The notes under the pieces are model-generated. The model worked only from the letters and a program-made list of their open reading frames with translations. It searched no databases and was not told the DNA's origin. Below, one piece after another: positions 2,611 through 64,000 of a stretch of DNA of 64,000 nucleotides. Source of the stretch: Opitutaceae bacterium (lineage in GTDB: Bacteria; Verrucomicrobiota; Verrucomicrobiia; Opitutales; Opitutaceae); contig JAQTYQ010000001.1 of the NCBI GenBank assembly GCA_028688225.1, forward strand, positions 262,888 to 326,887, read 5' to 3'. The first letter of the stretch is position 1. Each line of letters opens with the position of its first letter. The position numbers were made by a program, and so were the translations under genes.

Positions 2611-4097
2611 CGGCTTGCCTGCCGTTCGCTGGCCTCATGCATCACTGCGGGCCACGCCGCGCGAATATCCGTTCCCATGCCGGGCGAGACGACGATCCGC
2701 GCCCCGCAGCCTTGTGCCCACAGGCGCCAAGCCGCATTCAAGCCGACTTCGTCGATTTCTGGCAAAATCACTGCAAGATTGGGATACACATTGCACGACG
2801 TTGTCACGGCAGCGTCGGGCGTCCGTCCCATCGGATGCACCAGGAAGATTTGCCCAGTCCCCAAAACGCCGTCGCGTCCTAGCCGCTCCATTTGCCGGCC
2901 AAAAAGTATCACCGGCGTCGTAGAGGTCGACAAGATAGCTGGACTTGCCTCGAATGGCGAATGAACGACTACCCGCCCCGGAGTTCCGGGCATTCCGAGC
3001 CAGCGTCGAATTTCCTTACCAGGGGTCCGTCCCAAGACATCCGTATCGGGCCACACATGCCACGTTTCAGTGGCTGGTCTCTTTGGGGACACAAGCACCA
3101 CTTCGTCGCCTTGTGGCTCGATCCGTAAGGCGCATTGTTTGTTCCAGTGTATTCCGGCCAACCAGAGCAGCGATGCTCCGGCTGTTCCAGCAACAACCCC
3201 TGAAATCAAGGCCAGCCACCAGCGGCGGTCGCGGCGCCATACGGTTGCCGTCACGACCACCAGGACTGAGGCAACCGGGACGATCCAGAGCTTCGGTTCT
3301 ATCCAAAGCGTGCTGAAGACATTGGCCACAGCCCAAGCGATCAGCGAGGCTCCAGCCGCCGCCGCAATAACGTCGCCCTCGTGTAGGAGCCTGCTTGCAA
3401 GCGATCGATCCTTCGCGTCTGGCTTGGTTCCCCTCGCCGTTCTCCACGCCCAAATCAACAAAGCCGTCAGAATCGCAATCACCGCCCCTAACACCGGTAG
3501 TCCATACTCCACGCCCACGTGCAGGTAGCTGTTGACCATCGTGGCGTAACCTTCGGTACGGTTCATATCCTGGAACCAGTTCATGTACGCCCGACCGGAT
3601 TCGCCTGCACCCCAGCCACGCCAGGGCGAAGCTGCTACCATTTGCAGTCCACCATGCCACAACTCCAGTCGGTTATTCACTGCGCCGTCTTCCGCGATGG
3701 CGCTCGGCTGCAGCCGGTTGGCGAAGCCTGTGCCCGCCGCGCAAGCTGTCACGAGCAACAGTCGCAGCGTCCATGCCCGCCACGATGCGACCATTTGCCG
3801 CCATCCCAGCGCCGCCGCATAGAAAGCCGCTCCGGTGGCGAACGCCACCAAAGCGCCGCGCGAGTAGGTCTTCGTCAGTAGAAAATAGCCGACCGTTTCG
3901 ATACCCAGTCCTACTCCCATCGCGACGGTTGCGTCTCTTCCGCTTCCCCTCTTCCGCCTCCTGCCTCCGATCATCCAGCACCACGGCAGGAGTGTGGCCA
4001 GAAAGGCGCCTGCATAGTTAGGCGTCGCCCAGCCGATATTCCAGCGCTGCATTCCGTTATAGATAAAATCTCCTTCCAAAATCATTGGCTTTCGCAC
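2607..4097 (-). CDS. O-antigen ligase/polymerase-like membrane protein
   Basis: 496 residues. The N-terminal half has multiple hydrophobic segments and an O-antigen ligase (Wzy/WaaL-type) pattern: RWNIGWATPNYAGA near the start, then TKTYSRGALVAF and a periplasmic-loop-like NRLELWHGGLQMVAASPWRGWGAG. Family members transfer or polymerise glycans on undecaprenyl carriers in the inner membrane. The C-terminal third after about residue 310 is soluble and unusual for the family, and I do not recognise it. The frame crosses a 26-base REP-like segment at 3381-3406, which encodes the stretch around KDRSLASRLLHEGD. The start at 4097 is the only long choice, but part of the first transmembrane region may lie upstream. 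Downstream gene overlaps by four bases. Confidence 0.6.
   Translation of the reverse strand: MRKPMILEGDFIYNGMQRWNIGWATPNYAGAFLATLLPWCWMIGGRRRKRGSGRDATVAMGVGLGIETVGYFLLTKTYSRGALVAFATGAAFYAAALGWRQMVASWRAWTLRLLLVTACAAGTGFANRLQPSAIAEDGAVNNRLELWHGGLQMVAASPWRGWGAGESGRAYMNWFQDMNRTEGYATMVNSYLHVGVEYGLPVLGAVIAILTALLIWAWRTARGTKPDAKDRSLASRLLHEGDVIAAAAGASLIAWAVANVFSTLWIEPKLWIVPVASVLVVVTATVWRRDRRWWLALISGVVAGTAGASLLWLAGIHWNKQCALRIEPQGDEVVLVSPKRPATETWHVWPDTDVLGRTPGKEIRRWLGMPGTPGRVVVHSPFEASPAILSTSTTPVILFGRQMERLGRDGVLGTGQIFLVHPMGRTPDAAVTTSCNVYPNLAVILPEIDEVGLNAAWRLWAQGCGARIVVSPGMGTDIRAAWPAVMHEASERQASR
3381..3406. repeat. REP half inside a coding gene (GTAGGAGC family)
   Basis: This segment matches 63307-63332 in 25 of 26 positions. 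It has GTAG at 3383-3386 followed by a GCCTGC-TT-GCAAGC stem with one mismatch. It sits in frame inside the O-antigen-ligase-like gene. Confidence 0.65.
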
Positions 4098-4287
4098 GGT
4101 TTGGTGCTATCTGACGGGCGCTGCTGCCGTCGTAAGTGTCTTTGCTAACATCCTCGGAGATAGTATTTCCGATTTAAAAGCCTCTTGTCACACTAGTGCG
4201 GTTCTTGGGTTCGTCGTGCACGTAATCGAGTTTGAGGAGGCGATTAGCCTGTCATTCCAGTGAAATCGCCACGGCTATCTCCAAGCT

Positions 4288-4875
4288 TCACGGTGAATTG
4301 CTCTCCGGACTCGAAGATCCAGAATGCCGCGATGTTTTCTCAATCCCCGAGTTCGAGCCTGTTCGTTGCAGAAGAATTAGCGACTCGTAGCCTTCCCCCG
4401 GCATTCCGACAATTCTAACCCGATATTCCGGCAGTGGCGTATCATACCAACCAAATATAACGGGATCCCCATCACCAAAGTCCCATATGCCCGGCACACC
4501 AGAAAGACGTCCGCCCTGATAGTACAGTCGGGGACAACTCGGCGTGTATCTGTTAGCTGGGGGGAATATACTTGTCCCAGCTTTGATCCGAATACACACC
4601 CAGTAACCCTGCAGTCTTACCCTTTTTGAAAACAGAATCAAGAAATTCTCTGTTCGACTACGATGCTCGATCCAAGCCTCCACAAATTCCATCCGTCTCC
4701 CGCCGTAGATCACCCAATTCGTGTCGATGCTAAGCTGCTCAACGAAAAGGCCGTTTTTTTCGGATTCTGCAACTGAAGCGGATGGAATCGCATTGAAAGC
4801 GTCGTCCGCAAATAAGGGAACAATCCCGGCGCCGGCGAGCAGAGCCACGCACAGAACAAAGCAACGCGCATTCAT
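4288..4875 (-). CDS. Secreted protein of unknown function, paralogue 2
   Basis: 195 residues with a clear signal peptide (MNARCFVLCVALLAGAG...FADD). It is a close paralogue of the gene immediately upstream (4878-5447): shared blocks include NWVIYGG, FVEAWIEH, GYWVCIRIK, DFGDGDPV, YDTPLPEYR and MPGEGYE. Its ATG lies two bases after the stop of the paralogue, so the pair looks like a recent tandem duplication read as one unit. The C-terminus is Ser/Pro-rich and differs between copies. I do not recognise the family; the fold is probably a small beta-rich extracellular domain. The pair follows a large secreted RHS gene and may be functionally tied to it, but that is inference from position. Confidence 0.65.
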   Translation of the reverse strand: MNARCFVLCVALLAGAGIVPLFADDAFNAIPSASVAESEKNGLFVEQLSIDTNWVIYGGRRMEFVEAWIEHRSRTENFLILFSKRVRLQGYWVCIRIKAGTSIFPPANRYTPSCPRLYYQGGRLSGVPGIWDFGDGDPVIFGWYDTPLPEYRVRIVGMPGEGYESLILLQRTGSNSGIEKTSRHSGSSSPESNSP

Positions 4876-4877
4876 AG

Positions 4878-5447
4878 TTATTCCCTTTCCGGACCCGAAG
4901 GTCCGGATTGCTCCGCAGTTTTCTCAATCGCCGTGTTCGAGCCTGTTCGCTTCAGTACAACCAGCGGCTCGTAGCCCTCCCCGGGCATTCTGATAGTCCT
5001 AAACCGATATTCCGGCAGCGGCGTATCATACCTGCCAAATGCAACGGGATCCCCATCGCCAAAGTCCCTCACTCCCACAGTACCACCAATCCTTCCGCCT
5101 TCACAGTTCAATCGAGGAAACGGCAGATTGTCATGGAATATATTTGTCTCCGATTTGATGCGAATACACACCCAGTAACCTCGCAATCTTACTCTTCTCG
5201 AAAACAGAATCAGGAGGTTCCGCAATTGACTGCTATGCTCGATCCAAGCTTCCACAAATTCGATCCGCTTCCCTTCGTATATCACCCAATTCGGCTCGAT
5301 ACTAAGCCCTTCGACAAAAAGACCACTTTTTTTTGCTTCCGCGATCGAAAGGGTCGGAACGCTGCTGAAAGGGTCGTCCGCGAATAAGGGAGTAATCCCT
5401 GCGCCGGCGATCAGAGCCGCACACAGAGCAAAGCAACGCGCATTCAT
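4878..5447 (-). CDS. Secreted protein of unknown function, paralogue 1
   Basis: 189 residues with a signal peptide (MNARCFALCAALIAGAG...FADD). It shares FVEAWIEH, GYWVCIRIK, DFGDGDPVAFG, YDTPLPEYR and MPGEGYE with the adjacent downstream paralogue. The first residues also resemble the start of the RHS protein 118 bases upstream (MNTRVFFFALALTAGAG), so all three may share an export cassette. No catalytic motif or known domain was recognised. An immunity role for the RHS tail is possible by position, but a cleavable signal would place the product outside the cytoplasm. Confidence 0.65.
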   Translation of the reverse strand: MNARCFALCAALIAGAGITPLFADDPFSSVPTLSIAEAKKSGLFVEGLSIEPNWVIYEGKRIEFVEAWIEHSSQLRNLLILFSRRVRLRGYWVCIRIKSETNIFHDNLPFPRLNCEGGRIGGTVGVRDFGDGDPVAFGRYDTPLPEYRFRTIRMPGEGYEPLVVLKRTGSNTAIEKTAEQSGPSGPERE

Positions 5448-5564
5448 AATGGAAAGAGTTCGATCGCTCTACAGAAAGGGTCCACTTGACAAACCGCTAT
5501 ACAAAGGGTGACAGCAGTCAAAAGCGGATTGGGGTTGATCACCGTCCGAATTCATCGCAATACT

Positions 5565-9878: not shown

Positions 9879-9950
9879 GGAGGATGAGGTTCGAAGATGG
9901 AGGGATTAAGAGAAATCGGATCGAGGGGCAGCGTGGGGCTGGGATGATGA

Positions 9951-11537: not shown

Positions 11538-11547
11538 GAGTATGAAG
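11491..11547. repeat. Palindromic repeat forming the 3' end of the response regulator gene
   Basis: TGCCAAACTCGCCTGCC starts it, and GGCGGCTGGTGAGAGT closes it. A second copy with the same ends lies at 35801-35855 in intergenic DNA. The copy here supplies the last codons and the TGA of the response regulator. Confidence 0.6.
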
Positions 11548-11551
11548 CCAC

Positions 11552-11612
11552 GTAGCCAAACTCGTGAGAGTTTGAGCGGATCGTCTGTCCAAAGCCTCAC
11601 GGCTTTAGCTAC
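11552..11612. repeat. REP pair (GTAGCCAAACTC family), diverged right arm
   Basis: The left arm 11552-11574 is identical to the left arm at 42460-42482. It is a hairpin CCAAACTC-GTGA-GAGTTTG with GTAG at its foot. The right arm 11589-11612 is CCAAAGCC-TCAC-GGCTTT with CTAC at its end. The stem differs but still pairs, and the TCAC/GTGA loop is kept. The rest of 11613-11935 holds no gene; a CTGCTG palindrome lies at 11713-11728. Confidence 0.75.
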
Positions 11613-11935
11613 GAAATCCCGAACCGGTCTGGGGTGAGCTTGTCGAATCGTCGAGGGGCAAGCGATTTATCCTCCGCCCAGGCTGCTATGCAGGAGGACC
11701 GGTCGCGAGCATTCTGCTGGATAGCAGAGCATGATCCCGTCTGAGCGACGGCCGTAATTAGCGCTCGCCCCACCCTGCGGGCCATCCTGCCGGTTGGACC
11801 ATCCCCATCTCCCCGCGCTGCCGCCTGAACCGCGCCGGGGCGGGAACCGAACTTCGCTCCGACGCCGGCTTTGATTGACCGGCATGCTGTCAATGGTATC
11901 GAATCACTTCTCCCGATTCTTTTCTTCTCCATCAT

Positions 11936-14475: not shown

Positions 14476-14499
14476 GCCAATTGCCGGCAGACAAGACCG

Positions 14500-14525
14500 G
14501 CGGGGGTCGGGCGACCCCGCCCTAC
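14500..14525. repeat. GTAG-footed hairpin (GGGGTCG stem)
   Basis: GGGGTCG and CGACCCC form the stem and CTAC (GTAG on minus) ends the element. A related copy with a varied stem is at 41552-41576. Confidence 0.6.
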
Positions 14526-19119: not shown

Positions 19120-19247
19120 AGCAGATTAAATTGAAGCGTGGCCGTAAAAGTAGCGCAGGCTTCCAGCCTGCATCAGTCGAGGGAGCAGGCAGGATGCCTG
19201 CGCTACCCGAGACCAAGACGGCTACAAAAAAACTTAAATCGCTGTAG
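19119..19247. repeat. Dispersed ~125-bp repeat, REP pair type, copy A
   Basis: Contains GTAG at 19150-19153 before a GCAGGC/GCCTGC hairpin, and a second hairpin ending CTAC at 19203-19206. A near-identical copy lies in inverted orientation at 49203-49333. The copy directly follows the P-II stop codon and may act as its 3' hairpin. Confidence 0.85.
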
Positions 19248-20842: not shown

Positions 20843-21655
20843 TTAATCCTGAAGGATACGCTCAGCCAGCGTAAGTGACGAAGAGTCTCCGTTTCCGGTC
20901 CAGTCAAACCGAAGCCTGTAAGTTTGTGTTGGAATATTACTGCCGCAGAGTGCGACTGTGAGGATATACGTGCCCGGCGCAGAGAACACGTCTCGCCCAG
21001 ACCCAGTCCTGAGAGTCAGTTCTCTCCCATACTTACTGGGAGCGAAAACCTGCTGAGGAGTGTGCTGAATCCCGATGACGAGCACATCGAGAAATTCACG
21101 CGCCCTTGGACTCAGCGTCTTGCTCAATGCATCCGGCTCGTGTGATCGCGCATATGGCAACTGCTCCACATCGTGGTCCCTGACTACTGCCCCGTCTTTC
21201 TCAATCTTCAGCAACTTCCCGAAACAACCAGTTGCGGGTTGCGTCCAATTCAAGGTAACAGCCACGCGAAAAAATTGATGAGAGGCGCCATCCCTTCCCG
21301 TGTGACATCCGGAGATTTGCTCGTTGCACTCAACGGTGAGCTTGAGCCTGTTCCGTTCTTCTAGATCCAACACCTTCTTTCGTTCTCTCGCCCAAAGGTC
21401 ATATGCCGTGAAAATAACGGCGAGTACAGCAAACGCCCACCATACGAACTTCCAGTGAGCGTCAAAAGGCGTGGCGGAAAGCACAACAGCCAGCACCATG
21501 AAGCCACTGGTCACTTTTCCCGCCCAATGTCGCCAAAATGCTCCAATAAACTGTCGCCCGAGGGACCGCGTGATTTGCTGAGGCGCCATACGATCCGCTG
21601 ATAAACAAGTTCGCCGAAGTGGTCGAGGTACATTCCGCACCTCCGTCTCGATCAA
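20843..21655 (-). CDS. Hypothetical membrane protein
   Basis: 270 residues from the ATG at 21655; a start at Met23 (MAPQQITRS) is also possible. Two hydrophobic segments at about residues 50-90 (SGFMVLAVVLSATPF, FVWWAFAVLAVIFTAYDLWA) are followed by a charged helix and a soluble beta-rich domain (VAVTLNWTQP, GTYILTVALCGSNIPTQTYRLRFDW). The base composition looks less GC-rich than its neighbours. The topology (two membrane helices, coil, sensor-like domain) suggests a membrane-attached accessory protein. I do not recognise a family. Confidence 0.6.
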   Translation of the reverse strand: MIETEVRNVPRPLRRTCLSADRMAPQQITRSLGRQFIGAFWRHWAGKVTSGFMVLAVVLSATPFDAHWKFVWWAFAVLAVIFTAYDLWARERKKVLDLEERNRLKLTVECNEQISGCHTGRDGASHQFFRVAVTLNWTQPATGCFGKLLKIEKDGAVVRDHDVEQLPYARSHEPDALSKTLSPRAREFLDVLVIGIQHTPQQVFAPSKYGRELTLRTGSGRDVFSAPGTYILTVALCGSNIPTQTYRLRFDWTGNGDSSSLTLAERILQD

Positions 21656-21735
21656 GTTGCGGACGGATACTCAAACTAGGACACCACCTTAGGCCACCGG
21701 CGAATGCGCTTCCCTCCATCGCCCCGGGCGGCAAA

Positions 21736-23181
21736 ATGGGATCGGTCATCATGGAGACGGAATCCCCGCTGTATGCCGAAATTCTTCGCCACCTGCTGAC
21801 GGTCGGCGGCTTTCTGCTCGCGGTCTTCCTGATCGCCCGCCTCATGAGCGAAAAACGGCAGCCGGGCAACACCGTGGCCTGGCTGCTCGGCATCGTGCTC
21901 ATTCCCTACGTGGGGGTGCCGCTGTATTTGCTCTTCGGAGGCCGCAAGCTCCAACGTCTGGTGGCGCGGAAGTCGCGGCTGTCACCCGTGCCGTCGGCGG
22001 TGACCGCCGTCACCTCCCCGGTCGCGACCGGAGCCATCGCGCAGGCCCTGGTCCGCGAGGGCGGATGCGCGCCGGTGGGCGGCAACGCCGTGCGCTTTCT
22101 CACCCGCGGCGATGAGGCGTACGCCGAACTCGAACGGCAGATCCGCGGAGCCCGGCAGACGATTCATCTGATGACTTTCATCCTCGGCCGCGATGACACG
22201 GGGAAGCGGATCGTGGAATTACTGGCCCAGCGCGCCCGCGAGGGGGTGAAGGTCAGGCTGCTGCTCGACGCCGTCGGCTGCTTCCTGAGCAGCCGCGGTT
22301 TCGTGGATCCGATCCGGCGGGCCGGCGGTGAGGTGCACCGTTTCATGCCCGTGCTGCCGTTGCAGTGGCGCGGCTCGGCCAACCTCCGCAACCACCGCAA
22401 GATTGCCGTGTTCGACCAGCAGAGCGCCATCCTCGGCGGACACAATCTGGCGATCGAGTACATGGGGCGGCTGCCGCTGAAAAAACGCTGGCGCGACTTT
22501 GGCGCGGTCATCGAGGGTCCCGCCGTCGAGCTGCTGAACGAGGTTTTCCTCGCCGACTGGTGTTACGCGAGCGGCCAGTCGGTCGACACGCTGCACGCGG
22601 AGAGCGGCGCCCCGGTGCTCGAGCCGCGCGGCGCGTGTGAGCTGCAGGTGATCGCCAGCGGACCCGACGTCACGGGCGATCCCTTGTACGAGGGCATCCT
22701 TTCATTCCTCCAGGAGGCGAAGCGGCGCATCTGGATCATCACGCCGTATTTCATCCCCGACGAGGTGATCTTCCGCTCGCTGCTGGTCAAGGCCCGCACG
22801 GGACACGAGGTGAAACTCGTGGTGCCGGCCCGCTCGAACCATCCGATCGCCGACCAGGCGCGGCGCCACTACCTGCGCGAGTTGCAGAAGGCCGGCGTGC
22901 AGGTGCTCCTGTACCGGCCCGGCATGATGCACTGCAAGGGCATGATCATCGACGACCGCGTGGGTCTGCTCGGCTCGGCGAACTTCGATTTGCGCTCGCT
23001 CTTCGTGAACTTCGAGATCGGCGTGTTCGTCTATTCCGAGCCCGAGGTGCACGCCATGCGCGCCTGGGCCCAAGAACTCATGGGCCACAGCCATCCGCTG
23101 GCGGCGGGGAAACCCTCGCGCCGCCGCCTGCTCGGCAACATCGCCGAGGACGTCAGCCGGCTGCTGGCGCCGCTGCTGTGA
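21736..23181 (+). CDS. cls: Cardiolipin synthase (phospholipase D family)
   Basis: 481 residues. Two N-terminal membrane helices (LTVGGFLLAVFLIARL, VAWLLGIVLIPYVGVPLYLLFGG) are followed by two phospholipase D motifs: NHRKIAVFD ... GGHN and MHCKGMIIDD ... GSANFD. The enzyme joins two phosphatidylglycerols (or PG and another donor) into cardiolipin at the inner membrane. An ATG at 21751 (METESPL) is an alternative start. The last 50 bases and the stop codon are duplicated 708 bases downstream, on the other side of a RAYT gene. Confidence 0.92.
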   Translation: MGSVIMETESPLYAEILRHLLTVGGFLLAVFLIARLMSEKRQPGNTVAWLLGIVLIPYVGVPLYLLFGGRKLQRLVARKSRLSPVPSAVTAVTSPVATGAIAQALVREGGCAPVGGNAVRFLTRGDEAYAELERQIRGARQTIHLMTFILGRDDTGKRIVELLAQRAREGVKVRLLLDAVGCFLSSRGFVDPIRRAGGEVHRFMPVLPLQWRGSANLRNHRKIAVFDQQSAILGGHNLAIEYMGRLPLKKRWRDFGAVIEGPAVELLNEVFLADWCYASGQSVDTLHAESGAPVLEPRGACELQVIASGPDVTGDPLYEGILSFLQEAKRRIWIITPYFIPDEVIFRSLLVKARTGHEVKLVVPARSNHPIADQARRHYLRELQKAGVQVLLYRPGMMHCKGMIIDDRVGLLGSANFDLRSLFVNFEIGVFVYSEPEVHAMRAWAQELMGHSHPLAAGKPSRRRLLGNIAEDVSRLLAPLL

Positions 23182-23188
23182 CGCCGGA
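23133..23188 (+). repeat. Direct repeat of the cls 3' end, left copy
   Basis: Matches 23841-23896 in 54 of 56 positions, including the cls stop codon. The two copies bracket the RAYT gene and its two inner REPs. Confidence 0.85.
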
Positions 23189-23211: not shown

Positions 23212-23236
23212 GTAGGGGCGCAGTCTTGCTGCGCCC
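23212..23236 (+). repeat. REP hairpin bracketing the RAYT gene (left)
   Basis: Foot GTAG at 23212-23215, then GGGCGCAG (23216-23223), loop TCTTG, CTGCGCCC (23229-23236): an eight-base-pair perfect stem with a GTAG foot, the classical RAYT target layout. Confidence 0.85.
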
Positions 23237-23242: not shown

Positions 23243-23785
23243 CTATTCGCCGACGGCCAGCGACGGCGGAATCGGCAACCCAATCCACTCGCACGGCGGC
23301 ACCGCTCCGGGATTCAGCTGCGACATGAACAGGAAGGTCTCCGGCCGCGGACAACGCCAATGCGGCCATGCCTGATCCGCAGCAATCAACCCCGCCCGAT
23401 ACGGATTGAGGAACACATAGAGGCCGTAGGACTCCATCGACTCCGCGAGCCGAAGCCGGTGCTCGAAGAAATCCCTCTGCCAAACGAGCCCGGCGGCACC
23501 TAGCACCGGCCGGGTTTGCGCTTTAAACCGCGCCACAACCCGCCCCAGTGACAATCGACTTCCGAGAGTGAGCACCCAATGGAAATGATCTGGCATTATC
23601 GTGAACGCCCAGGTTTCGGAGTCTCCGCCTTCGTCCGACCGGCGGATAATGTCGCTCAGGGTCGCGGCAATTGCAGCCTCCGTCAAACCCAGGGTCCGAA
23701 AGCGCGTGCAGCAGGTGATGAAATAATTCGTTCCGGGCTGCGACCAGCGATGGGCCGAGAGCGCGTCCGTTCGGCGCGGTTGCAT
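23243..23785 (-). CDS. rayT: REP-associated tyrosine transposase (RAYT, Y1/HUH family)
   Basis: 180 residues. The HUH motif is MPDHFHW with His67 and His69. Downstream comes WQRDFFEHRLR and a helix with the likely catalytic Tyr123 in GLYVFLNPYRAGL, both typical of RAYTs. Such enzymes cleave single-stranded REP hairpins at GTAG and spread them while the transposase gene itself is usually domesticated. The gene is bracketed by inverted REP copies at 23212-23236 and 23817-23841 and, outside these, by a 56-base duplicated cls tail. The product looks complete. The start Met at 23785 precedes the family block NYFITCCTRFR. Confidence 0.9.
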   Translation of the reverse strand: MQPRRTDALSAHRWSQPGTNYFITCCTRFRTLGLTEAAIAATLSDIIRRSDEGGDSETWAFTIMPDHFHWVLTLGSRLSLGRVVARFKAQTRPVLGAAGLVWQRDFFEHRLRLAESMESYGLYVFLNPYRAGLIAADQAWPHWRCPRPETFLFMSQLNPGAVPPCEWIGLPIPPSLAVGE

Positions 23786-23816: not shown

Positions 23817-23841
23817 GGGCGCAGCAAGTCTGCGCCCCTAC
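23817..23841 (-). repeat. REP hairpin bracketing the RAYT gene (right)
   Basis: GGGCGCAG, loop CAAGT, CTGCGCCC, then CTAC: the inverted form of the left REP with one loop difference. Confidence 0.85.
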
Positions 23842-23896
23842 GGCAACGTCGCCGAGGACGTCAGCCGGCTGCTGGCGCCGCTGCTGTGAGGCCGGA
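23841..23896 (+). repeat. Direct repeat of the cls 3' end, right copy
   Basis: 54 of 56 matches to 23133-23188, in the same orientation. It carries no upstream cls sequence, so it is a stray tail. Confidence 0.85.
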
Positions 23897-23907: not shown

Positions 23908-23932
23908 GGGCGCAGCCAGCCTGCGCCCCTAC
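23908..23932 (-). repeat. Third REP hairpin of the same family
   Basis: GGGCGCAG, loop CCAGC, CTGCGCCC, CTAC. Same orientation as the copy at 23817, just after the duplicated cls tail and before the cimA stop. Confidence 0.8.
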
Positions 23933-25865: not shown

Positions 25866-25946
25866 TGGGCAGTCTGCAAACTGGAGCGGCGACGCCCCGT
25901 CGCCGTTTTTCTCGGGAGCACGCGACGAGGGCGTCGCATCCCCATA
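25866..25946. repeat. Dispersed repeat (GCGACG...CGTCGC type), uninterrupted copy
   Basis: Begins CAGTCTGCAAACTGGAGC and ends GCGTCGCATCCCCAT. A second copy at 56327-56480 has the same ends but a 74-base insertion. A shorter related piece is at 61237-61300. The remaining bases between the cimA leader and 26004 hold no gene. Confidence 0.75.
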
Positions 25947-26339: not shown

Positions 26340-26661
26340 GATGGGTGACCACGAATAAACACCGCGCAACGCCCCGGCGCAATACCCAGGCCGCATCCAT
26401 GCCGTCGCAGTCGCAAAAAAAATCACGTAGCAACCGAGGTCGCGAGGCTGCATTGGGCGACTGACACCGCTGCTGACGTCGGCTGCTACCGCAAAACCAT
26501 GAATGGATCACTGGTCAGGCAACGCGGGCAGGACGTCCAGCCAGCATTCTGCTGGACAGCAGAACGCCGCGGGCGTCATGGCTGACCGCCCTGTTCCACT
26601 ACCTGCCAAGACGGCCGCGCCATTTTGAATAAGGAACCTGGAGACGAAGTCCGACAGGTTC
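26340..26661. other. Intergenic with palindromes
   Basis: No gene is seen between the small secreted protein and thrC. The space holds a GTAG-containing stretch at about 26424-26500, a TTCTGCTG/CAGCAGAA palindrome at 26547-26564, and the AGGAACCTG hairpin overlapping the thrC stop. Confidence 0.5.
26547..26564. repeat. CTGCTG/CAGCAG palindrome
   Basis: TTCTGCTG, GA, CAGCAGAA: perfect eight-base-pair stem. One of five copies with varied outer stems (also 11713-11728, 31439-31468, 33355-33402, 46028-46045). Confidence 0.7.
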
Positions 26662-26665
26662 CTAC
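26632..26665 (-). repeat. GTAG-footed hairpin overlapping the thrC stop
   Basis: On minus: GTAGGAACCTG, then TCGGACT and a spacer, then CAGGTTCCT. A related element with AGGAGCCTGTCGGACT lies at 62753-62797. It could serve as a 3' hairpin for thrC mRNA. Confidence 0.6.
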
Positions 26666-31434: not shown

Positions 31435-31557
31435 GTAGGGCGCGATCTGCTGGCCAGCAGATCGCGCCGGCCAGGCCATCGAGGAAGGCGGGTTAGGGAT
31501 AACCCGCCCTGCCACAACAAGCGGCCCCGCGGTAGGACGCGTTATCCCTAACGCGCC
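31435..31557. repeat. Cluster of three palindromic hairpins between serA and plsY
   Basis: First, GTAG at 31435-31438 followed by a 30-base perfect palindrome (31439-31468) with CTGCTGG/CCAGCAG at its heart. Second, GGCGGGTTA-GGGA-TAACCCGCC at 31487-31508. Third, GTAG at 31532-31535 and a CGCGTTA-TCCC-TAACGCG hairpin at 31538-31555. No gene is present in 31430-31616. Confidence 0.8.
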
Positions 31558-41437: not shown

Positions 41438-41945
41438 GGCCCCAATCGGATTCCCGTCAATCCCGGCGGCCGGCGTTGTTCCCGTAGAATCGCCGCACCG
41501 CGGTTGGAGGGCGGGCCCGGCGAATGTCGCTGCGGTTCCATCCCAAAAACCGGCGAGGTCGGCGACCCCGCCCTACAGTATCTCTCGGTGCAGCGGATCT
41601 ATTGAGGTTCGCGTATGAGACGGACGTCTGGAGGTAGGGCGTGACCGCCGGGCACGCCGGGAAGCACAGACGGCCCAGCCTCCTTCGCCATGGCTTCGAA
41701 GGCCACGCACTGCCGAGTCAGCCCGCCATAGCTTTAGCGAAGGCGGGCGGTCCGTCCCTACCCGTCAGGCTGTGGAGCGACCATCAATAGTCAGCGCCTG
41801 TACGGCGGCCTTCCCGCTATTTACACCGGCGCAATCAGGCCTAAACTGTCCCCCGTCGGCATCGAGGGGCGCGGCTGCGCCAACGGCCAGCCGGCGGCTC
41901 CTCGACGGGGTGTCCGCGCCAAAAACCCAAACAACAGGAGTACCC
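41438..41945. other. Intergenic with two REP-type hairpins
   Basis: No gene is seen in these 508 bases. They hold a GTAG-footed hairpin at 41552-41576, a CCCGCC...GGCGGG hairpin at 41722-41747, and several shorter inverted pieces. AGGAG at 41937-41941 serves the next gene. Confidence 0.55.
41552..41576 (-). repeat. GTAG-footed hairpin (GGTCG stem)
   Basis: GGCGAGGTCG and CGACCCCGCC flank a single G, followed by CTAC. Related to 14500-14525 with a changed stem. Confidence 0.6.
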
Positions 41946-42459: not shown

Positions 42460-42526
42460 GTAGCCAAACTCGTGAGAGTTTGGTTCCAGCCGATGGAGTG
42501 GTCCAAACTCTCACGAGTTTGGCTAC
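42460..42526. repeat. Perfect 24-bp inverted REP pair between convergent genes
   Basis: The left arm 42460-42483 (GTAG, then CCAAACTC-GTGA-GAGTTTGG) is the exact complement of 42503-42526. Each arm is itself a hairpin with a GTGA/TCAC loop and a GTAG foot, a REPIN layout. It lies between the YbaK-like gene and dgt and could act as a bidirectional 3' hairpin. Confidence 0.85.
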
Positions 42527-44213: not shown

Positions 44214-44717
44214 ATGCCCCACCTTTCCTTTCCCACCGTCATCGGTCCGTGCGGCCTGGCCTGGAACGACGCCGGGCTGACGGCGTTCAACCTGCCGGGA
44301 TCGGATCGCCCCGATCCGGGAGAGGCCGCCGCGCGTCTGGCGGAGGCGCCCGCGTGGATCCGCGGGCTGGTGGCGCGCGTGCAGCGACATCTGGCGGGCG
44401 AACTGCAGGATTTCACCGCGGTGCCGCTGGACTATGGCGCGGTGTCGTCCTTCGCCCGGCGCGTCTATGAGGCAACGCGTCAGGTGCCGGCGGGACACAC
44501 GCGCACTTACGGCGATCTGGCCGGGACGCTGGAGGAACCGCCGGGGACGAGTCGCGCGATCGGCGCCGTTCTCGGAGCCAACCCCTGGTCCTTGATCGTG
44601 CCGTGTCACCGCATCCTCGGCGCCAAGGGCCGTCTGACTGGCTTCTCCGCCGCCGGCGGGGTGCGCACCAAGGCGCGGCTGCTGGCGATCGAGGGCGCGC
44701 AGTTGCTGGCGGAGTAG
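44214..44717 (+). CDS. ogt: Methylated-DNA-protein cysteine methyltransferase
   Basis: 167 residues. The DNA-binding and active-site domain has the HTH element PAGHTRTYGDLA, RAIGAVLGANPWSLIVPCHRILG with the acceptor Cys131 in PCHR, and the closing LTGFSAAGGVRTKARLLAIEG. The N-terminal RNase-H-like part is short. The protein removes alkyl groups from O6-alkylguanine in a suicidal reaction. The start at 44214 is preferred because upstream in-frame residues are not conserved. Confidence 0.92.
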   Translation: MPHLSFPTVIGPCGLAWNDAGLTAFNLPGSDRPDPGEAAARLAEAPAWIRGLVARVQRHLAGELQDFTAVPLDYGAVSSFARRVYEATRQVPAGHTRTYGDLAGTLEEPPGTSRAIGAVLGANPWSLIVPCHRILGAKGRLTGFSAAGGVRTKARLLAIEGAQLLAE

Positions 44718-44796
44718 CGCCGGTCTGCGACCGGCGCTACTCGTTTGATCGTCCCTTCACGGCATCGTGGGTGGAGAAGATTTCCACCGGCGGGTT

Positions 44797-46015: not shown

Positions 46016-46027
46016 CGCGGAATCATG

Positions 46028-46045
46028 CTCTGCTGGGCAGCAGAG
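46028..46045. repeat. CTGCTG/CAGCAG palindrome
   Basis: CTCTGCTG, GG, CAGCAGAG: a perfect stem just after the tdh stop, and a member of the five-copy family. Confidence 0.65.
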
Positions 46046-46182
46046 GAGGAGCGAGCCTCAGCCTTCGTATGAAGCTAGCGGCACATTGGCCCGAACGCTA
46101 CCAGCCTGCCATGAGGCGGGCGGGCGCGACTCGTGCGCAGGCACGAGGCGTGAACGACAGCCGAATTGGCAGCGAGGGCTGG

Positions 46183-46519: not shown

Positions 46520-46725
46520 CGGGTGTCATTTTGTCGACCGACACTGCTATGGCAAGTGATCCTTTGCCCCAACGTTAAAGGTCTGCCGCGACCGTGTCCG
46601 GCGCGACTCGTGCGGCAGCACGAGGCGTGACGGACATGGTCGTTGGCAGTAGCGCCTAGTTCAACAAGTGTTGTATCATGGCTCCGCTGCGCTCCGCGTG
46701 ATACGACCCTCTGGGTTCGGCTCCT

Positions 46726-48871: not shown

Positions 48872-49495
48872 CGTTTGCCGAACAGTGTAATTATGCCTCA
48901 AGGCGGTTGTTGTTCTATCAGAATCCGGCGGTGGCGCCTTGCACTGCGACATCAGCGCCGCCCGAAGTCCGTTCTCATTGACAGGAAATATCTTGAAGAT
49001 CAAGCCTACCGGAGACGCGCGTCCCGGCGCGTCAAACCCTCGATCTCGAGTACCTCCCGGGTCACGCCAACGTGGAGACCATCAGGATCTATACCATGTC
49101 ATGCAGAAACCCGGGCTGGGCGTCAGGTCGCCGCTGGACGGTCTCGGCCAGCACACCGCGGGTGCGCTGGCGCCCTGAGACGCTTCTGGCTCCCCTGTCC
49201 TTCTACAGCGGCTTAAGTTTTTTCGTAGCCGTCTTGGTATCGGGTAGCGCAGGCATCCGGCATGCTCCCTCGGCTGATGCAGGCTGGAAGCCTGCGCTAC
49301 TTTTACGGCCACACTTCAATTTAATCCGCTCTATTCCAGCTCAGACACTGGCCGCAAGCCGCCGGGTCTTCCGTTTCATAACGACCTCATAATTAAGAGC
49401 GCCCTTGCGGGGCACCAAAGAGTCACGAAATCCTCGCATGAATACGGCGTCCGGCTGCATGATTCCGACTGAGGCAGCAGCGGGCGCGCGATCCC
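48872..49495. other. Intergenic, no gene except a dispersed repeat
   Basis: Only short overlapping frames without family features are seen. The repeat at 49203-49333 is inverted relative to the copy at 19119-19247. Confidence 0.5.
49203..49333. repeat. Dispersed ~125-bp repeat, REP pair type, copy B (inverted)
   Basis: Contains GTAG at 49244-49247 with a GCAGGC hairpin, and ends with GCGCTACTTTTACGGCCACACT. Near-identical to the complement of 19119-19247. Confidence 0.85.
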
Positions 49496-54621: not shown

Positions 54622-54713
54622 GGTATTTCCTTTCTCGAGAATCCTAAGTGAAAACGACTTAAGGTATTCGAACAGTAAACCCCGTCAACATCAAAGGCTT
54701 ACAATTCTCGAAA
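54622..54713. promoter_or_regulatory. Divergent promoter region with paired TTCTCGARAA boxes
   Basis: TTCTCGAGAA, a perfect 10-base palindrome, lies at 54632-54641, ten bases before the IHF/HU start. TTCTCGAAAA lies at 54705-54714 at the start codon of the ClpX-like gene. A possible minus-strand promoter has TTGACG at 54688-54683, a 16-base spacer and TACCTT at 54666-54661. The boxes could be shared operator sites; this is inference. Confidence 0.45.
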
Positions 54714-56297: not shown

Positions 56298-56699
56298 CCC
56301 GGATGTTTCCCACAGTGGACACCGCGGACAATCTGCAAACTGGAGCGGCGACACCCCCGCCAGCCTCCGCCAAGACTTCGGCGTGGCCCGTCCGGCAAAC
56401 GCAGCCTCGCCGTAGCCCGGAGGACGAAGGCGGGTCGCCGTTTTTCGAGGGAACACGCGACGAGGGCGCCGCGTCCCCATGCTCTCATCTCAGCGGATCG
56501 TGCATTTTCACGACGATGGGGAGATGGGGCGCATTATCCTTAACGCGCCGAGATTCCAGAGTCGGACGGTGGATGCAAGCGACTCGGCGGCTCAAGGATA
56601 AGCCATCCTACCTTTGGTTGCGGCCCTGCCGCGCTGCGAAATATGCGGGCGCGGCTCCGCCCGTTGCCTTGTTCCGTCCGGCCTGAACCTCCGACGACG
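56298..56699. other. Intergenic, repeat-rich
   Basis: No gene. Holds the interrupted repeat at 56327-56480, a CATTA-TCCT-TAACG hairpin near 56531-56547, and a GTAG-GATGGCTTATCC element at about 56587-56610 (minus). Confidence 0.55.
56327..56480. repeat. Dispersed repeat interrupted by a 74-bp palindromic insertion
   Basis: The ends match the copy at 25866-25946. The insert at about 56358-56432 starts CCCGCC...CTCCG and ends CGGAG...GGCGGG and is itself a palindromic element of another type. Confidence 0.75.
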
Positions 56700-57404: not shown

Positions 57405-57537
57405 AATCAGGTCCGATATTTTCCGGTTCGGACGCGGACCCAAAAAATCGGCCCCATCGTCGCGGCTGAAGCAGTTTCCGTGCTAGATCGGCATCTGTAC
57501 ACTTGCCAGCCGCCCCCGACTTCGCTTCCCTGCCAGC

Positions 57538-58518: not shown

Positions 58519-58550
58519 TGCATCCCTCCCTCGCGAGCACCTCCTGACTC

Positions 58551-60014: not shown

Positions 60015-60096
60015 CCGCGGAGGACGGCGCGCTGGAGATCCAGCCTTCGCACGAGGCTACGGCGGACACGGTAACGCGCCCCACCTGTCACCCGTG

Positions 60097-60122
60097 GTAG
60101 GGCGGGTTTTCCGCAACCCGCC
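60097..60122 (+). terminator. GTAG-footed hairpin between convergent rpoN and tsaD
   Basis: GTAG at 60097-60100, GGCGGGTT (60101-60108), loop TTCCGC, AACCCGCC (60115-60122). Stem of eight base pairs between two convergent genes; lacks a clear T-tract, so it may be a REP serving as a 3' hairpin. Confidence 0.55.
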
Positions 60123-60158
60123 GGGTTTGACTGCCGCCCCGCAAAGCGTGCATCCGCC

Positions 60159-61187
60159 TCAAGTCAGGGCGAGGTCGGGCTGGATGGTCAGTCCCTCGCC
60201 ATCGCAGGCCACGCCGTCCGGATCGCACCACGCCGCGAAGCCGATCATGCCCGCGTTGTCACCGGTGTGCCGCGGCTGGGCCGCGTAAAACGCCATCCCC
60301 TGCTCCCGGGCCAAGCGTTCCAGGGCGGTGCGCAGCCGGCGGTTGTTGGCCACGCCGCCTGACACACCCAGGCTCGCATGCGCGCCGCGCGCCAGGGCCG
60401 CCGCGGTTTTTTTCACCAGGGCGTCAATCACGGCCTGCTGATAGCTGGCGCAGAGATCGTTCATCCGCGCCGTCACCTCGTCGGTGCTCATTTTTTCCAC
60501 CAGATAGCGCAGGCTCGTCTTCAGGCCGGAGAAACTGAAGGACAGATCGCCGCCCGGCTGGATGCCGCGGGGGAACCGGTAGGCGTCGGGCCGGCCGGCG
60601 GTCGCGCGTTGTTCGATCAGCGGTCCGCCCGGATAGCCCAATCCCAGCAATTTCGCCCCCTTGTCGAGCGCCTCGCCCGCTGCATCGTCCCGTGTGGTGG
60701 AAAGCACGGAGATGCGTCGCTCGCGATTGATCTCGAACAGCAGGGTGTTGCCGCCCGACACGATCAGCCCCAGGTGCGGCAGCACGGCGGCCAGCCGGCG
60801 GTCGAACGTCGCGGGTTCCGCCGCATGCAGGGCGATGAACGGCGACCAGGCGTGGCCGCGCAGGTGATTCACCCCCACCAGCGGCACCCGCCGTTCCAGG
60901 GCCAGCGCCTTGGCCGCCGCCAGGCCGATCGCGAGGCAGCCGGCCAGCCCCGGTCCGTGGGTGACGGCCACCGTGCCGATGCGCTCCAGGTCGGCGCCCT
61001 CGCGCAGCCGCCGGAGCAGCAGCGGAAAGTTGCGCAGATGCTCGCGGGTGGCCAGGTCCGGCACCACGCCGCCATAACGCTCGTGCAGGGCGATCTGGCT
61101 GTGCACCAGTTCCGGCCCCAGCCCCAGCGCCGGATCAAAAACCGCCAGCGCCGTCTCGTCGCAGGAACTTTCCAGGGCGAGGATCAT
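60159..61187 (-). CDS. tsaD: tRNA N6-threonylcarbamoyladenosine transferase TsaD
   Basis: 342 residues. Start MILALESSCDETALAV; metal-binding GVNHLRGHAWSP, and LGLIVSGGNTLLFEI, KGAKLLGLGYPGGP, LSFSFSGLKTSL and LGVSGGVANNRRLRTALE. The enzyme adds threonylcarbamoyl to A37 of ANN-decoding tRNAs, with TsaB, TsaE and TsaC. It is convergent with rpoN and followed upstream by the S41 protease. Confidence 0.95.
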   Translation of the reverse strand: MILALESSCDETALAVFDPALGLGPELVHSQIALHERYGGVVPDLATREHLRNFPLLLRRLREGADLERIGTVAVTHGPGLAGCLAIGLAAAKALALERRVPLVGVNHLRGHAWSPFIALHAAEPATFDRRLAAVLPHLGLIVSGGNTLLFEINRERRISVLSTTRDDAAGEALDKGAKLLGLGYPGGPLIEQRATAGRPDAYRFPRGIQPGGDLSFSFSGLKTSLRYLVEKMSTDEVTARMNDLCASYQQAVIDALVKKTAAALARGAHASLGVSGGVANNRRLRTALERLAREQGMAFYAAQPRHTGDNAGMIGFAAWCDPDGVACDGEGLTIQPDLALT

Positions 61188-61236
61188 GGTTTCAGGCGTA
61201 GCCGCGGAGATGGGATCGAACCGACTCGGAAATTGC

Positions 61237-61300
61237 GTGGGGACGCGACGCCCTCGTCGCGTGTGGCTCTCGGACCGCGGCGAGGGCGCCGCGGCTCCAC
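61237..61300. repeat. Fragment of the GCGACG...CGTCGC dispersed repeat
   Basis: GGGGACGCGACGCCCTCGTCGCG and a following GGCGAGGGCGCCGCGG resemble the ends of the copies at 25866 and 56327. No gene is seen in 61188-61412. Confidence 0.5.
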
Positions 61301-61412
61301 CTCACCGGCTGCGTCGCTGGTTCATGTTCAACTGGAGCGACGCGCTCCCGCGCGTCATCCATGGCCGGACAAAATCCGGGCCCCCCATCAACCATTGCTG
61401 GCAGGAGCTCAT

Positions 61413-62723
61413 TCACGGCTTTGCAACCTCAGCCGCCGGCCGGCTCCGAGCCGCGAAGAGATCCACCCCCTGCAGCACATCGATGGCCACCTGCAGCGGC
61501 CGGTCCGCGACGGGTTCGAAGCCGAAGCGCGCGGCAAAGGCCTTCGGGTCGGTGAGATCGCGCCGCAGCCGCTGCAGCCGCACCCGGGCCTCGTCCTCCG
61601 GCGAAACCGTCACGGGCACCTGCGGTTCGATGCCCTTTTCGTTGATGCTCACTCCGCCGGGGGTGTAGTAGCGGGCGGTCGTCAGGCGCAGCGCCTCGCC
61701 GTTTTTCAGCCGGAAGATCGTTTGCACGGAACCCTTGCCGAACGTGGTTTCCCCGACCACCGCCGCGCGGGCGGTGTCCTTGAGCGCGCCCGCCACCACC
61801 TCGGCCGCACTCGCGGTGCCGGAATTCACCAGCAGCACGATCGGCAGATTCAATCCGCCGGCCGCCGCGCCGGCCCGGAACTCCTCCCGGCTGTCCGCCG
61901 TCCGGCCCTGGGTGTAGACGATGAGCTCACCCGGCCGGAAAAACGGTTCCGCCACGTCGACGGCGGCATCGAGCAGCCCGCCAGGATTATTGCGCAGGTC
62001 GAGGATCAGGGCCTGCGCGCCCCCGGCCTGCAGCTGCTGCAACGCCTCCTTGAACTCGGCGCCCGTGTGCTCGCTGAACTGGGTGAGCTGGATGTAGCCG
62101 ATGCGGTCCGCCAGCAGATGGACGTCGCGCACGCTCTCCACCTTGATGACCTCGCGGATCAGGGCCAGTTCGATGGTCTCCTTGGGGGCCGGACGGAAAA
62201 GCGTCACGTTCACCCTGGTTCCGGGCTTGCCGCGCAGACGTTCGATGATCTTGTCCAGGCCCAGCCGGTCGATGGACTGCCCGTCGACCTTGACAATCTC
62301 ATCGCCGCGGCGGATGCCCGCCCGCTCGCTGGGCGTATCGGCGATGGGGGCGATCACGATCACCCGGCCGCCGCGCCGCTCCACCTGGACGCCGATGCCG
62401 CCGAACTTGCCGTCCATCTCCTCGCGCAGTTCGCGATAACCGGCCGCCTTGAGGAACTCCGAATGCGGATCCAGGGATTTGAGCATTCCCTCCAGCGCCG
62501 CCCGGGTGAGCTTGTCGTAATCGGCATCCCTTTCCTCGACATAGTTCCTTCCGACGAGGCTGAGGACGCTGCGAAAATAGGCCGCGTTGCGGCCAAGGGC
62601 CCGGTCGGGCCACAGGTCCCACGCCGGGTTGAAACGCGTCACCGCCGTGGCCAGGATGATGCCAAAGGCCGCGCCACAGACGACGATGAGAATGCGTTTG
62701 AGCATGACCCCTACTGTGTGCAT
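61413..62723 (-). CDS. ctp: C-terminal processing peptidase, S41 family
   Basis: 436 residues. An N-terminal helix (ILIVVCGAAFGIILATAV) anchors it. A PDZ domain at about 105-190 includes GGIGVQVERRGGRVIVIAPIADTPSERAGIRRGDEIVKVDG. The catalytic Ser lies in LLVNSGTASAAEVVAGAL and the Lys in GETTFGKGSVQ. Ctp proteases trim or degrade periplasmic proteins. The start may be Met7 (MLKRIL) at 62705. It is read toward tsaD. Confidence 0.92.
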   Translation of the reverse strand: MHTVGVMLKRILIVVCGAAFGIILATAVTRFNPAWDLWPDRALGRNAAYFRSVLSLVGRNYVEERDADYDKLTRAALEGMLKSLDPHSEFLKAAGYRELREEMDGKFGGIGVQVERRGGRVIVIAPIADTPSERAGIRRGDEIVKVDGQSIDRLGLDKIIERLRGKPGTRVNVTLFRPAPKETIELALIREVIKVESVRDVHLLADRIGYIQLTQFSEHTGAEFKEALQQLQAGGAQALILDLRNNPGGLLDAAVDVAEPFFRPGELIVYTQGRTADSREEFRAGAAAGGLNLPIVLLVNSGTASAAEVVAGALKDTARAAVVGETTFGKGSVQTIFRLKNGEALRLTTARYYTPGGVSINEKGIEPQVPVTVSPEDEARVRLQRLRRDLTDPKAFAARFGFEPVADRPLQVAIDVLQGVDLFAARSRPAAEVAKP

Positions 62724-62752
62724 CTGGTCATGCTTGTAAATGGCTTCCGCCA

Positions 62753-62797
62753 GGAGCCTGTCGGACTCACCGTCCTTCCCGGCTCCTGTAAATAAGC
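62753..62797. repeat. AGGAGCCTGTCGGACT palindrome
   Basis: AGGAGCCTGTCGGACT, spacer, GGCTCCT. Related to 26632-26665. The stretch 62724-62945 holds no gene. Confidence 0.5.
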
Positions 62798-62945
62798 CCT
62801 CTCATCATCAATAGCCCGCAGATGCACAGGCTTGCCTGTTCGACATGGGGGGAAGCTTGCCAGGGCAGTATGGTCCCGGCACCCCCTCGATGAGTGACCG
62901 GCAGTGTGCATCAGTCGTCAAAATCCACGTCTCCCATTTGCCGCA

Positions 62946-64000
62946 ATGATTCAAACCGACGCCAATCCGCCTTCCCCGGAGTTTCTCACGGCCTTTCAAC
63001 GGCAGGCCGGGGTCGGCGGAGTCATGCCCTTCGCCCGCTTCATGGAACTGGCCCTATATCATCCGGCGACCGGCTACTATGCCCGCCGCCGCCGGCGGAT
63101 CGGACGCGAGCCGGACACCGATTTTTTCACCGCCACCTCGCTGGGGCCGCTGTTCGGCGAGCTCGTGGCGGCGGCCGGCGCCGACCTGCTCCGTCCGCGG
63201 CCGCCGGGCGGATATGTCTTTGTCGAAGTCGGCGCGGAGCGTTCTACCGAGACAATACCATGGACCCCTGATCACGCTCCATCCTCTGGAATTCATTCGG
63301 TGGATGGTGTAGGAGCCTGCTTGCAGGCGATCCCTCCTGGACAATCGCGAGCAAGCTCGCTCCCACAACCGCATAAACCCGGCGATGACCCGCAGGGCGG
63401 GACCGGCGGCGTGCTGGCCGGCGTGGCGCATCCCTTCGCCGCGGTGGCGTCGATTGCGCTCGGGCAGCCGCTCACGCTGCCGCCGCGGGCCGTCGTTTTC
63501 TCGAACGAACTTTTCGACGCCCAGCCCTGCCACCGGCTGGTTCGCCAGGGAGGCCGCTGGCACGAGATCGGCGTCGCACTGCGCGGTCACACGTTGGAGG
63601 AAATCTTTCTGCCGGATCCCTCCCCCGAGGTGCGCGCCGTGCAGGACCGTCTGCCGGCCGCGGCGCCCGAAGGCTACCGGATCGATCTGCCGCTCGCCGC
63701 CGCACGGCTGGCCGCGCAGATCGCCGCGCAGCCGTGGACGGGTTTGTTTGTCGCCTTCGATTATGGAAAAACATGGCGCGAACTGACGGAGGATACCCCG
63801 GCCGGCACGGCGCGCGCCTACGTCCGGCACCGGCAGAGCAGCGATCTGCTCGCGCAGCCCGGCGAACAGGATCTCACCTGTCACGTCTGCTGGGACTGGC
63901 TCGTCGAGGCGCTGCTCGCCCATGGATTCGCCGCGCCGGTGCTTGAATCCCAGGAGGCATTTTTCGTCCATCACGCCGCGCCGGTACTCAGCCGGCTGGC
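62946..64000 (+). CDS. MidA/NDUFAF7-like SAM-dependent methyltransferase, interrupted in frame, 3' end cut
   Basis: A frame from ATG at 62946 runs off the right edge without a stop. The start matches the family: VMPFARFMELALYHPATGYYARRRRRIGREPDTDFFTATSLGPLFGELVA, then YVFVEVGAE at about residue 96. Family members would continue with the SAM-binding loop and on to VVFSNELFDAQPCHRLVRQ, which is present after residue 175. Between them about 55 residues (RSTETIPWTP to DDPQGG) are unrelated and are encoded by the REP-pair element at 63241-63405. The frame stays open across it. Whether the enzyme still works is unknown. Relatives methylate arginine in respiratory complex I assembly in mitochondria. 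Confidence 0.75.
   Translation, partial: MIQTDANPPSPEFLTAFQRQAGVGGVMPFARFMELALYHPATGYYARRRRRIGREPDTDFFTATSLGPLFGELVAAAGADLLRPRPPGGYVFVEVGAERSTETIPWTPDHAPSSGIHSVDGVGACLQAIPPGQSRASSLPQPHKPGDDPQGGTGGVLAGVAHPFAAVASIALGQPLTLPPRAVVFSNELFDAQPCHRLVRQGGRWHEIGVALRGHTLEEIFLPDPSPEVRAVQDRLPAAAPEGYRIDLPLAAARLAAQIAAQPWTGLFVAFDYGKTWRELTEDTPAGTARAYVRHRQSSDLLAQPGEQDLTCHVCWDWLVEALLAHGFAAPVLESQEAFFVHHAAPVLSRL
63241..63405. repeat. REP-pair element inserted in frame in a methyltransferase gene
   Basis: Contains GTAGGAGC-CTGC-TT-GCAGGC at 63309-63327 and, inverted, a GCGAGC-AA-GCTCGC arm ending CTCCCAC at 63346-63366. The two face each other (REPIN layout) and together with flanks total close to 165 bases, a multiple of three, with no stop in the gene frame. 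Exact ends are approximate. Confidence 0.7.

Follow-up and report, generated by a model that had tools for sequence, protein, structure and literature searches.

RAYT-linked hairpins with a GTAG foot in an Opitutaceae genome and the possible roles of foot, loop and stem

Repetitive extragenic palindromic (REP) elements with a GTAG tetranucleotide at the foot of the hairpin, together with their REP-associated tyrosine transposases (RAYTs), are described here in a 64,000-nucleotide stretch of an Opitutaceae (Verrucomicrobiota) genome. The stretch, referred to below as the window, covers positions 262888-326887 of contig C84 in an assembly of 4.31 Mb and 129 contigs; its contamination is estimated at 6%, so that a small number of contigs may come from elsewhere. 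For the window RAYT, Opitutaceae supply the best named relatives. We identify the hairpins as RAYT-type REPs, which have the GTAG foot in common. It is probable that some ten classes of REP, of which the window has seven, live alongside seven hairpin-flanked RAYTs, each mobilising its own class by way of foot and loop. Each enzyme would read a common foot of the GTAG type and a loop particular to its class, and much of the stem could vary freely so long as pairing is kept. We infer that the enzyme makes its cut at the REP and copies either this element or the pair. The observations behind this account are the enrichment of the foot, the copy numbers of the classes, the linkage of hairpins to RAYT genes, compensated stems and loops that are fixed within a RAYT clade.

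GTAG-footed hairpins and their RAYT genes

All 13 hairpin strings listed in a first-pass annotation of the window are present on their assigned strand, at most 13 bases from their assigned position, and not all of them carry GTAG directly on the stem, which had been proposed. Direct contact does not hold at 3383 and 63309, where a GA spacer separates GTAG from the stem (with one stem mismatch at 3383), nor at 19150 and 49244, where the spacer is C. The hairpin at 26633-26665 has a loop of 14 nt. When perfect stems of at least 8 bp were counted on both strands of the window, GTAG stood directly before 7 of the 56 hairpins and was the top tetramer. With spacings of 0-3 pooled, it was found at 8/56 hairpins, against 0 or 1 per dinucleotide shuffle (n = 10), and among stems of at least 9 bp just one of 14 had the foot. 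The main sample, 800 kb in 40 additional stretches of this genome, was placed at round positions without regard to repeats; the contigs were known from earlier repeat listings, and the test is thus not strictly blind. GTAG preceded 27 of its 728 perfect hairpins, compared with 1.41 expected from tetramer frequencies (about 19-fold, P about 3e-25). It was the commonest foot, the next-highest ratio among the 12 tetramers listed being 4.2. GTAG adjacency is therefore far from the chance level that the annotation had named as the contrary outcome. Additionally, in an earlier sample, which includes stretches picked for RAYTs, a good stem followed 35 of 1427 GTAG sites (2.5%), and 95 tetramers of the same composition gave a mean of 0.17% and a maximum of 1.4%. 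Most perfect hairpins are without the GTAG foot, those with it being a minority.

As for location, 54 of 121 GTAG hairpins lie outside greedily called long open reading frames (ORFs), which cover 88.2% of the sample, and this amounts to a strong depletion within ORFs; 67 of the 121 still fall inside ORFs of this over-calling proxy. Copy numbers in the genome were counted at up to three mismatches, with each pattern read backwards as a control. The GGGGCGCAG class has 29 copies, the CCAAACTC class (A) 40, the GGAGCCTGC class 14 and the GCGCAGGC class 26, and the reversed pattern was absent in every case. A loose pattern, GTAGGGCG..CGCC, gave 181 matches against 119 in its control and counts for nothing by itself, and an Rfam search of the window returned no match. 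The annotation's reading of these hairpins as RAYT-type REPs with a common GTAG foot is borne out by enrichment, copy number and the RAYT linkage described below.

The window holds a single RAYT gene, as annotated, at 23243-23785 on the minus strand (180 aa; 85.2 bits to profile NF047646, cut-off 80). The proposal of one RAYT-driven process does not extend to the genome, which holds eight RAYT-like loci; GTAG hairpins, in four classes, flank five of these. The eight loci, named by their contigs, were found with NF047646; five score above the cut-off, including the window gene (85), and C56b (65.9 bits), C82 (62.1) and C105 (42.0) below it. A search with PF01797 adds an IS200-like gene split across two frames. 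In an alignment of the seven own RAYTs without C82, the HUH motif M-P-D-H-x-H (MPDHFH in the window gene), a Tyr and N-P are invariant. The flanks carry GTAG hairpins at five loci, GTGG hairpins at one (C56b) and GGAG/GGGG-type repeats at one (C60); at C82 a hairpin pair was looked for and none was found. The window RAYT (C84) has three GGGCGCAG hairpins, and both it and C98 belong to the GTAG+GGGCGCAG-NCTTG type, C98 carrying a sister class with two stems. C47 is flanked by GTAG+GTCGGGC-TTTAT/TTCAG, C105 by eight hairpins of GTAG+CCAAACTC-GTGA and its variants, and C56a by GTAG+GGCGGGaCC-GCT, with three copies of GGCGGGACCGCTGGGCCCGCC that contain an A.G mismatch. The flanks of C56b are GTGG+AGCGCGTTG and those of C60 are non-GTAG repeats of GGAG/GGGG+ACGCGACGCC. 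The C82 locus (L022, C82:101742-102149) encodes a RAYT-like protein whose 336 aa include a long additional C-terminal portion; inspection by eye showed an inverted repeat of about 27 nt around the locus.

The C105 RAYT is divergent. Besides its 42 bits to the RAYT model, it has no Pfam match, and a Pfam domain is given for none of the 120 homologues listed (of 670), several of which are named RayT by JGI. In the family survey, 91 of 100 genomes had at least one RAYT-like match at E 0.001 and 61 were above the cut-off; one genome had 32 matches. A tree of 102 RAYTs (98 different) places the own enzymes in five clades, namely C84+C98, C47, C56a+C56b, C60 and C105, the last on a very long branch and unsure in its position.

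Linkage was surveyed at 178 loci, made up of the eight own ones, 30 and a further 60 of the family matches listed (the 60 hand-picked from rows without a locus) and the best 80 of 424 named-genome matches; RAYT frames were read in 171. A clear inverted hairpin pair is present at 101 of the 171, with GT[AG]G feet in both copies at 80 and in at least one at 85, strand and a spacing of 0-2 having been chosen for the best GTAG fit. Hairpin classes are labelled A-J and M (GCAGGC) in this analysis. Inverted flanking of a RAYT was seen in the own genome for classes A, B, C, E and the GTGG class I, and among the loci examined in relatives for classes D, F, G, H and M. Window hairpins with a RAYT in the own genome are the 23212 class (C84, C98), the 11552/42460 class (C105) and class E at 41634. 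Two of the nine annotated strings occur at own-genome RAYTs, and four have RAYT partners just in relatives among the loci examined: GCGCAGGC, GGAGCCTGC, GGCGGGGTC and, by its TTATCC loop, GGACGCG. Two of these relative-only classes have a RAYT in the same-genus genome G016, the 19150/49244 class at L223 and the 3383/63309 class at L228. The latter class also flanks RAYTs L048, L058, L061, L069 and L074, and L062 and L216 have TTATCC hairpins at their flanks. Where a class has no RAYT in the own genome, its hairpins have probably outlived an enzyme that was lost, as RAYTs flanked by hairpins of that type occur in related genomes. Such classes fit the published RAYT-loss model (PMC3686654).

Foot and loop as the features probably read by the RAYTs

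The annotation had offered one relaxed enzyme or several RAYTs with different hairpin tastes as alternatives. Each seems to hold at its own level: there are several RAYTs, each with its foot and loop fixed, and much tolerance in the stem. The strongest single support for foot and loop over stem is the loop test in the C105 clade. A family search gave 20 loci, of which 17 strong relatives (49-60% identity) were used, the query and two weak ones being left out. Seven of the 17 (52-60% identity) have GTAG/GTGG hairpins with 8-bp stems, one mismatch being allowed, and 4-nt loops. The loop is GTGA or GGGA in 26 of these 33 hairpins and one base off GTGA in the other seven, with 19 different left arms. 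Among 170 other RAYT loci, 13 have hairpins of the same shape, 26 in total; the G(T/G)GA loop is found in 0/26 and a CTTG loop in 13/26. Moreover, across 74 non-redundant RAYTs the distance between enzymes correlates with foot spacing (rho 0.34), the basal 2 bp (0.32), stem length (0.27) and the loop (0.17), and weakly with stem pairs 3-4 (0.09) and the apical pairs (0.10). In a compensation count that fixed the foot, some basal bases and the loop and left the right arm free, changes of the left arm were matched on the right at 91 of 112 positions (class A 19/19, B 9/10, C 2/2, D 14/28, E 34/38, F 13/15). Furthermore, the two flanking hairpins differ in stem at 30 of 80 RAYT loci in a search that required both stems to be perfect.

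Several points speak against this account. Cleavage and movement by the RAYTs of this genome are inferred from sequence; cleavage and strand transfer in vitro have been reported for RAYTs of E. coli, Stenotrophomonas and Marinomonas (PMC8266576). The correlations with RAYT distance are modest. Since the basal pairs follow the enzyme no less closely than foot spacing and more closely than the loop, a free stem applies to its middle and not to the whole of it. Class D is only half compensated, which may reflect coding sequence caught by its pattern; class G yielded no site in the compensation count, and 31 breaks affected the right arm only. When changed positions at RAYT loci were counted less strictly, 173 were paired and 145 unpaired, a count probably diluted by chance sites. 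Additionally, 10 of the 17 C105-clade loci are without a hairpin of the tested shape, 70 of the 171 RAYT loci are without a clear hairpin pair, and the window hairpins at 31435, 26633 and 44714 are without a RAYT partner among the loci examined.

The alternative that survives best is that stems are kept perfect not by any demand of the RAYT but by DNA template switching within the palindrome, known as quasipalindrome correction, foot and loop being merely inherited. Compensated changes are indeed frequent, and the two REPs of a pair often keep different stems, as would be expected for correction that acts within a hairpin and not across the two. However, template switching leaves unexplained the loop that stays fixed among RAYTs 52-60% identical to that of C105 while the stems change completely. 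We consider it rather unlikely as a replacement for reading by several RAYTs, although it could act together with RAYT selection. Far less plausible is a single relaxed enzyme, the window RAYT, that mobilises every GTAG hairpin of the genome. Such an enzyme would account for a foot common to sequence-distinct hairpins and for a RAYT locus that can hold two different stems, but there are seven further RAYT-like loci, five with their own GTAG or GTGG hairpins, and spacing and loop vary by class and follow the RAYT tree. Hardly credible is the view that the hairpins are merely terminators of transcription, or palindromes that arise by chance where GC content is high. That view would suit the 54 of 121 GTAG hairpins outside long ORFs but not the 19-fold excess of one specific foot, the 14-40 near-identical copies of each class with no reversed patterns, the inverted pairs or the RAYT linkage.

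Beyond the account of several RAYTs with their own classes, a more tentative proposal, possible in our view but not favoured, concerns the REP pairs. GTAG may serve as a universal handle, the loop as a heritable address and the middle of the stem as a free spacer, and pairs with two stems may avoid a long hairpin that hides GTAG. Each RAYT lineage would keep its loop and the stems would turn over by compensated changes; two different stems would let the REPs fold separately and not as one foot-to-foot hairpin with its GTAG concealed. Bertels and Rainey reportedly described in 2011 the REPIN, two inverted REPs as a unit; in contrast, same-class pairs here often join two different stems. The sample contains 22 inverted pairs within a class, 19 of them of this kind; at least two entries are doubtful (the class I pair and the class H pair at L029). 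The excess over random pairing is not significant (3 same-stem pairs seen, 5.96 expected, P 0.10). Across the whole genome, a GGACGG stem is joined to a GGCGCG stem in all 7 class E pairs, and an ATC-type hairpin to a TTC-type one in 9 of the 11 class M pairs, although pairs of either class may descend from one copied unit and are then not independent. In folding with DNA energies, the feet-paired structure of identical REPs (two real pairs, the others computed from a doubled REP) beats two hairpins by about 10-31 kcal/mol. For differing REPs the advantage is 0-7 kcal/mol, with one case of 10; five of the 22 pairs have no usable value, because the model bars loops under 3 nt. The calculated folding thus suggests that differing stems remove most of the advantage of a single long hairpin. 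A preference for heterodimers has been published with no obvious explanation, protection from enzymatic clearance being suggested (Di Nocera et al., PMC3733652). The proposal, if true, would explain it, and the folding idea is a further candidate.

Hairpins and the RAYT insertion site in the window

Class B, GTAG + GGGCGCAG-TCTTG-CTGCGCCC, stands at the window RAYT, on one flank at 23212-23236 (plus), on the opposite flank at 23817-23841 (minus) and as a third copy at 23908-23932 (minus). Class A, GTAG + CCAAACTC-GTGA-GAGTTTG(A), whose class-A-flanked RAYT is at C105 of the same genome, occurs at 11552-11575 and 42460-42483 (both plus), the latter with a same-stem inverted partner at 42503-42526 (minus). 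Class M is represented at 19150-19171 (plus) by GTAGC + GCAGGCT-TCC-AGCCTGC, with a partner at 19185-19206 (minus) in which the apical pair is swapped (GCAGGCA-TCC-TGCCTGC), and by a decayed copy at 49244-49265 (plus) with its partner at 49279-49300 (minus). Near-identical hairpins lie at RAYT L223 (G016:C44, same genus). Class H, at 3383-3406 (plus), reads GTAGGA + GCCTGC-TT-GCAAGC + GATC with one stem mismatch. A second copy at 63309-63332 (plus), of the hairpin type that flanks RAYT L228 (same-genus G016:C107), is partnered at 63343-63366 (minus) by a hairpin with a GTGG foot and another stem (GCGAGC-TT-GCTCGC). Class F, GTAG + GGCGGGGTC..GACCCC(C)GCC, lies at 14499-14525 and 41552-41576 (both minus) and flanks RAYTs L037, L045 and L046 in the family. 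Class E, GTAG + GGCGTGaCC-GCC-GGgCACGCC at 41634-41658 (plus), was missing from the annotated list, and the class flanks the RAYT at C56 (about 55 kb) of the own genome. Class G, GTAGGACGCGTTATCCCTAACGCGCC, is found at 31532-31557 (plus) and flanks RAYTs L062 and L216 in the family.

Some hairpins with a GTAG foot are less firmly placed. The one at 60097-60122 (plus), GGCGGGTT-TTCCGC-AACCCGCC, is of uncertain class, near F. No RAYT partner was seen for GGCGCGATCTGCTGG-CCAGCAGATCGCGCC at 31435-31468 (plus) or for GGAACCTG, 14-nt loop, CAGGTTCC at 26633-26665 (minus). A double-foot hairpin, GTAG...CTAC, at 44714-44740 (strand unassigned) was likewise missing from the annotated list. A further hairpin family, TCTGCTGG..CCAGCAGA, occurs at 11705-11728, 26540-26563, 31438-31461 and 46018-46044, mostly without a GTAG foot here; its members are sometimes nested inside GTAG hairpins, as at 31435 and in several further cases, and no RAYT partner was seen for them. 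Hairpins of the non-GTAG type found as repeats at the C60 RAYT lie at 25920-25943 (GGGGATGCGACGCCCTCGTCGCGT, minus), 56455-56478 (minus) and 61239-61262 (plus). This family has 57 genome copies at up to three mismatches and no match to the reversed pattern. It resembles the terminal inverted repeat (TIR) type of Di Nocera et al. (PMC3733652).

At the RAYT locus, 23133-23188 is repeated at 23841-23896 (96%) on the other side of the gene. The repeated piece is the last 49 bases of a phospholipase-D-like gene (21619-23181) plus 7 beyond, and the 23841-23896 copy starts at the final base of the CTAC foot of the REP at 23817-23841. The duplication has the look of an old join, made at the REP foot and preserved as a fossil. 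At three orthologous sites in the same genus where both flanks could be read, the RAYT is absent; a fourth, cut by a contig end, has a class H REP pair, and a fifth genome gives a partial match. Duplicated flanks ending at a GTAG foot were also searched for as traces of joining by RAYTs. In 1.176 Mb of the own genome, 2 of 226 GTRG hairpins had such a flank beside a REP-less copy, compared with 2 matches for 1220 GTRG sites without a hairpin; the two cases are the window locus and L030, which is REP sequence. At the relatives' loci the count was 31 of 510 hairpins, and the first 40 rows listed were nearly all tandem REP arrays. No claim on mechanism is drawn from these flanks.

Two other features of the window are repeats of a different kind. 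A stretch of 390 bases lies between two 87-nt copies, at 46086-46172 and 46563-46649, that are 70% alike, have palindromic cores and carry TTGGCAG at their ends, an arrangement that we take to be reminiscent of integron attC sites round a cassette; four ORFs scanned nearby gave no match to an integrase family. At 4287-5447, two similar ORFs (195 and 189 aa) lie in tandem with a DNA identity of 77-78%.

Known systems and what the RAYTs may read

Much of what is described here is already in print, including the GTAG tag, several RAYTs per genome with their own REPs, heterodimers, palindrome-keeping flank changes and the roles of loop and GTAG. Di Nocera et al. (2013, PMC3733652) set out a GTAG-tagged REP superfamily of 24 families, in which Opitutus terrae (Verrucomicrobia) is highly enriched and its family 20 has GTGG in most elements. 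The hairpins of the present genome resemble that superfamily, which has short palindromes with GTAG left unpaired at an end, some genomes with several families, alternative stem residues that remain complementary, dimers that combine like or unlike elements, and linkage to RAYTs. A comparison of loops with RAYT relatedness, as made here, was not found in the accessible text of that paper. As in Stenotrophomonas and Pseudomonas (PMC2817692, PMC3686654), there are several RAYTs per genome, each with its own REP class, and orphan classes attributed to RAYT loss; class H has the Pseudomonas design of GTAGGA plus a 6-bp stem. However, the strains of PMC3686654 have at most four RAYTs per genome, whereas eight RAYT-like loci, five above the cut-off, are present here, and up to 32 matches (E 0.001) in one of the 100 family genomes.

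The pattern of foot, loop and stem also matches the biochemistry of TnpA-REP in vitro (Corneloup et al. 2021, PMC8266576), in which three enzymes, from E. coli, Stenotrophomonas and Marinomonas, were used. There, cleavage needs GTAG, changes of the stem are partly tolerated, and single loop bases are critical in group 3. The classification of TnpA-Y1 (Quentin et al. 2018, PMC6006769) likewise has GT[AG]G feet, with a spacing of 1-2 nt in some, and REPs of two or more subfamilies at nearly half of the genes, compared with two stems at 30/80 loci here. A literature search, with most subscription journals outside its reach, gave no paper devoted to the RAYTs of Opitutaceae among the papers listed.

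Thus, the GTAG foot marks a community of RAYT/REP systems and not a single enzyme. With RAYT-like matches in 91 of 100 genomes, the family offers a natural experiment on the features recognised by a RAYT. In the C105 lineage, whose relatives keep G(T/G)GA loops on a variety of stems, the reading of the loop can be tested directly, and the REP pairs with two stems offer a concrete and testable answer to the preference for heterodimers.

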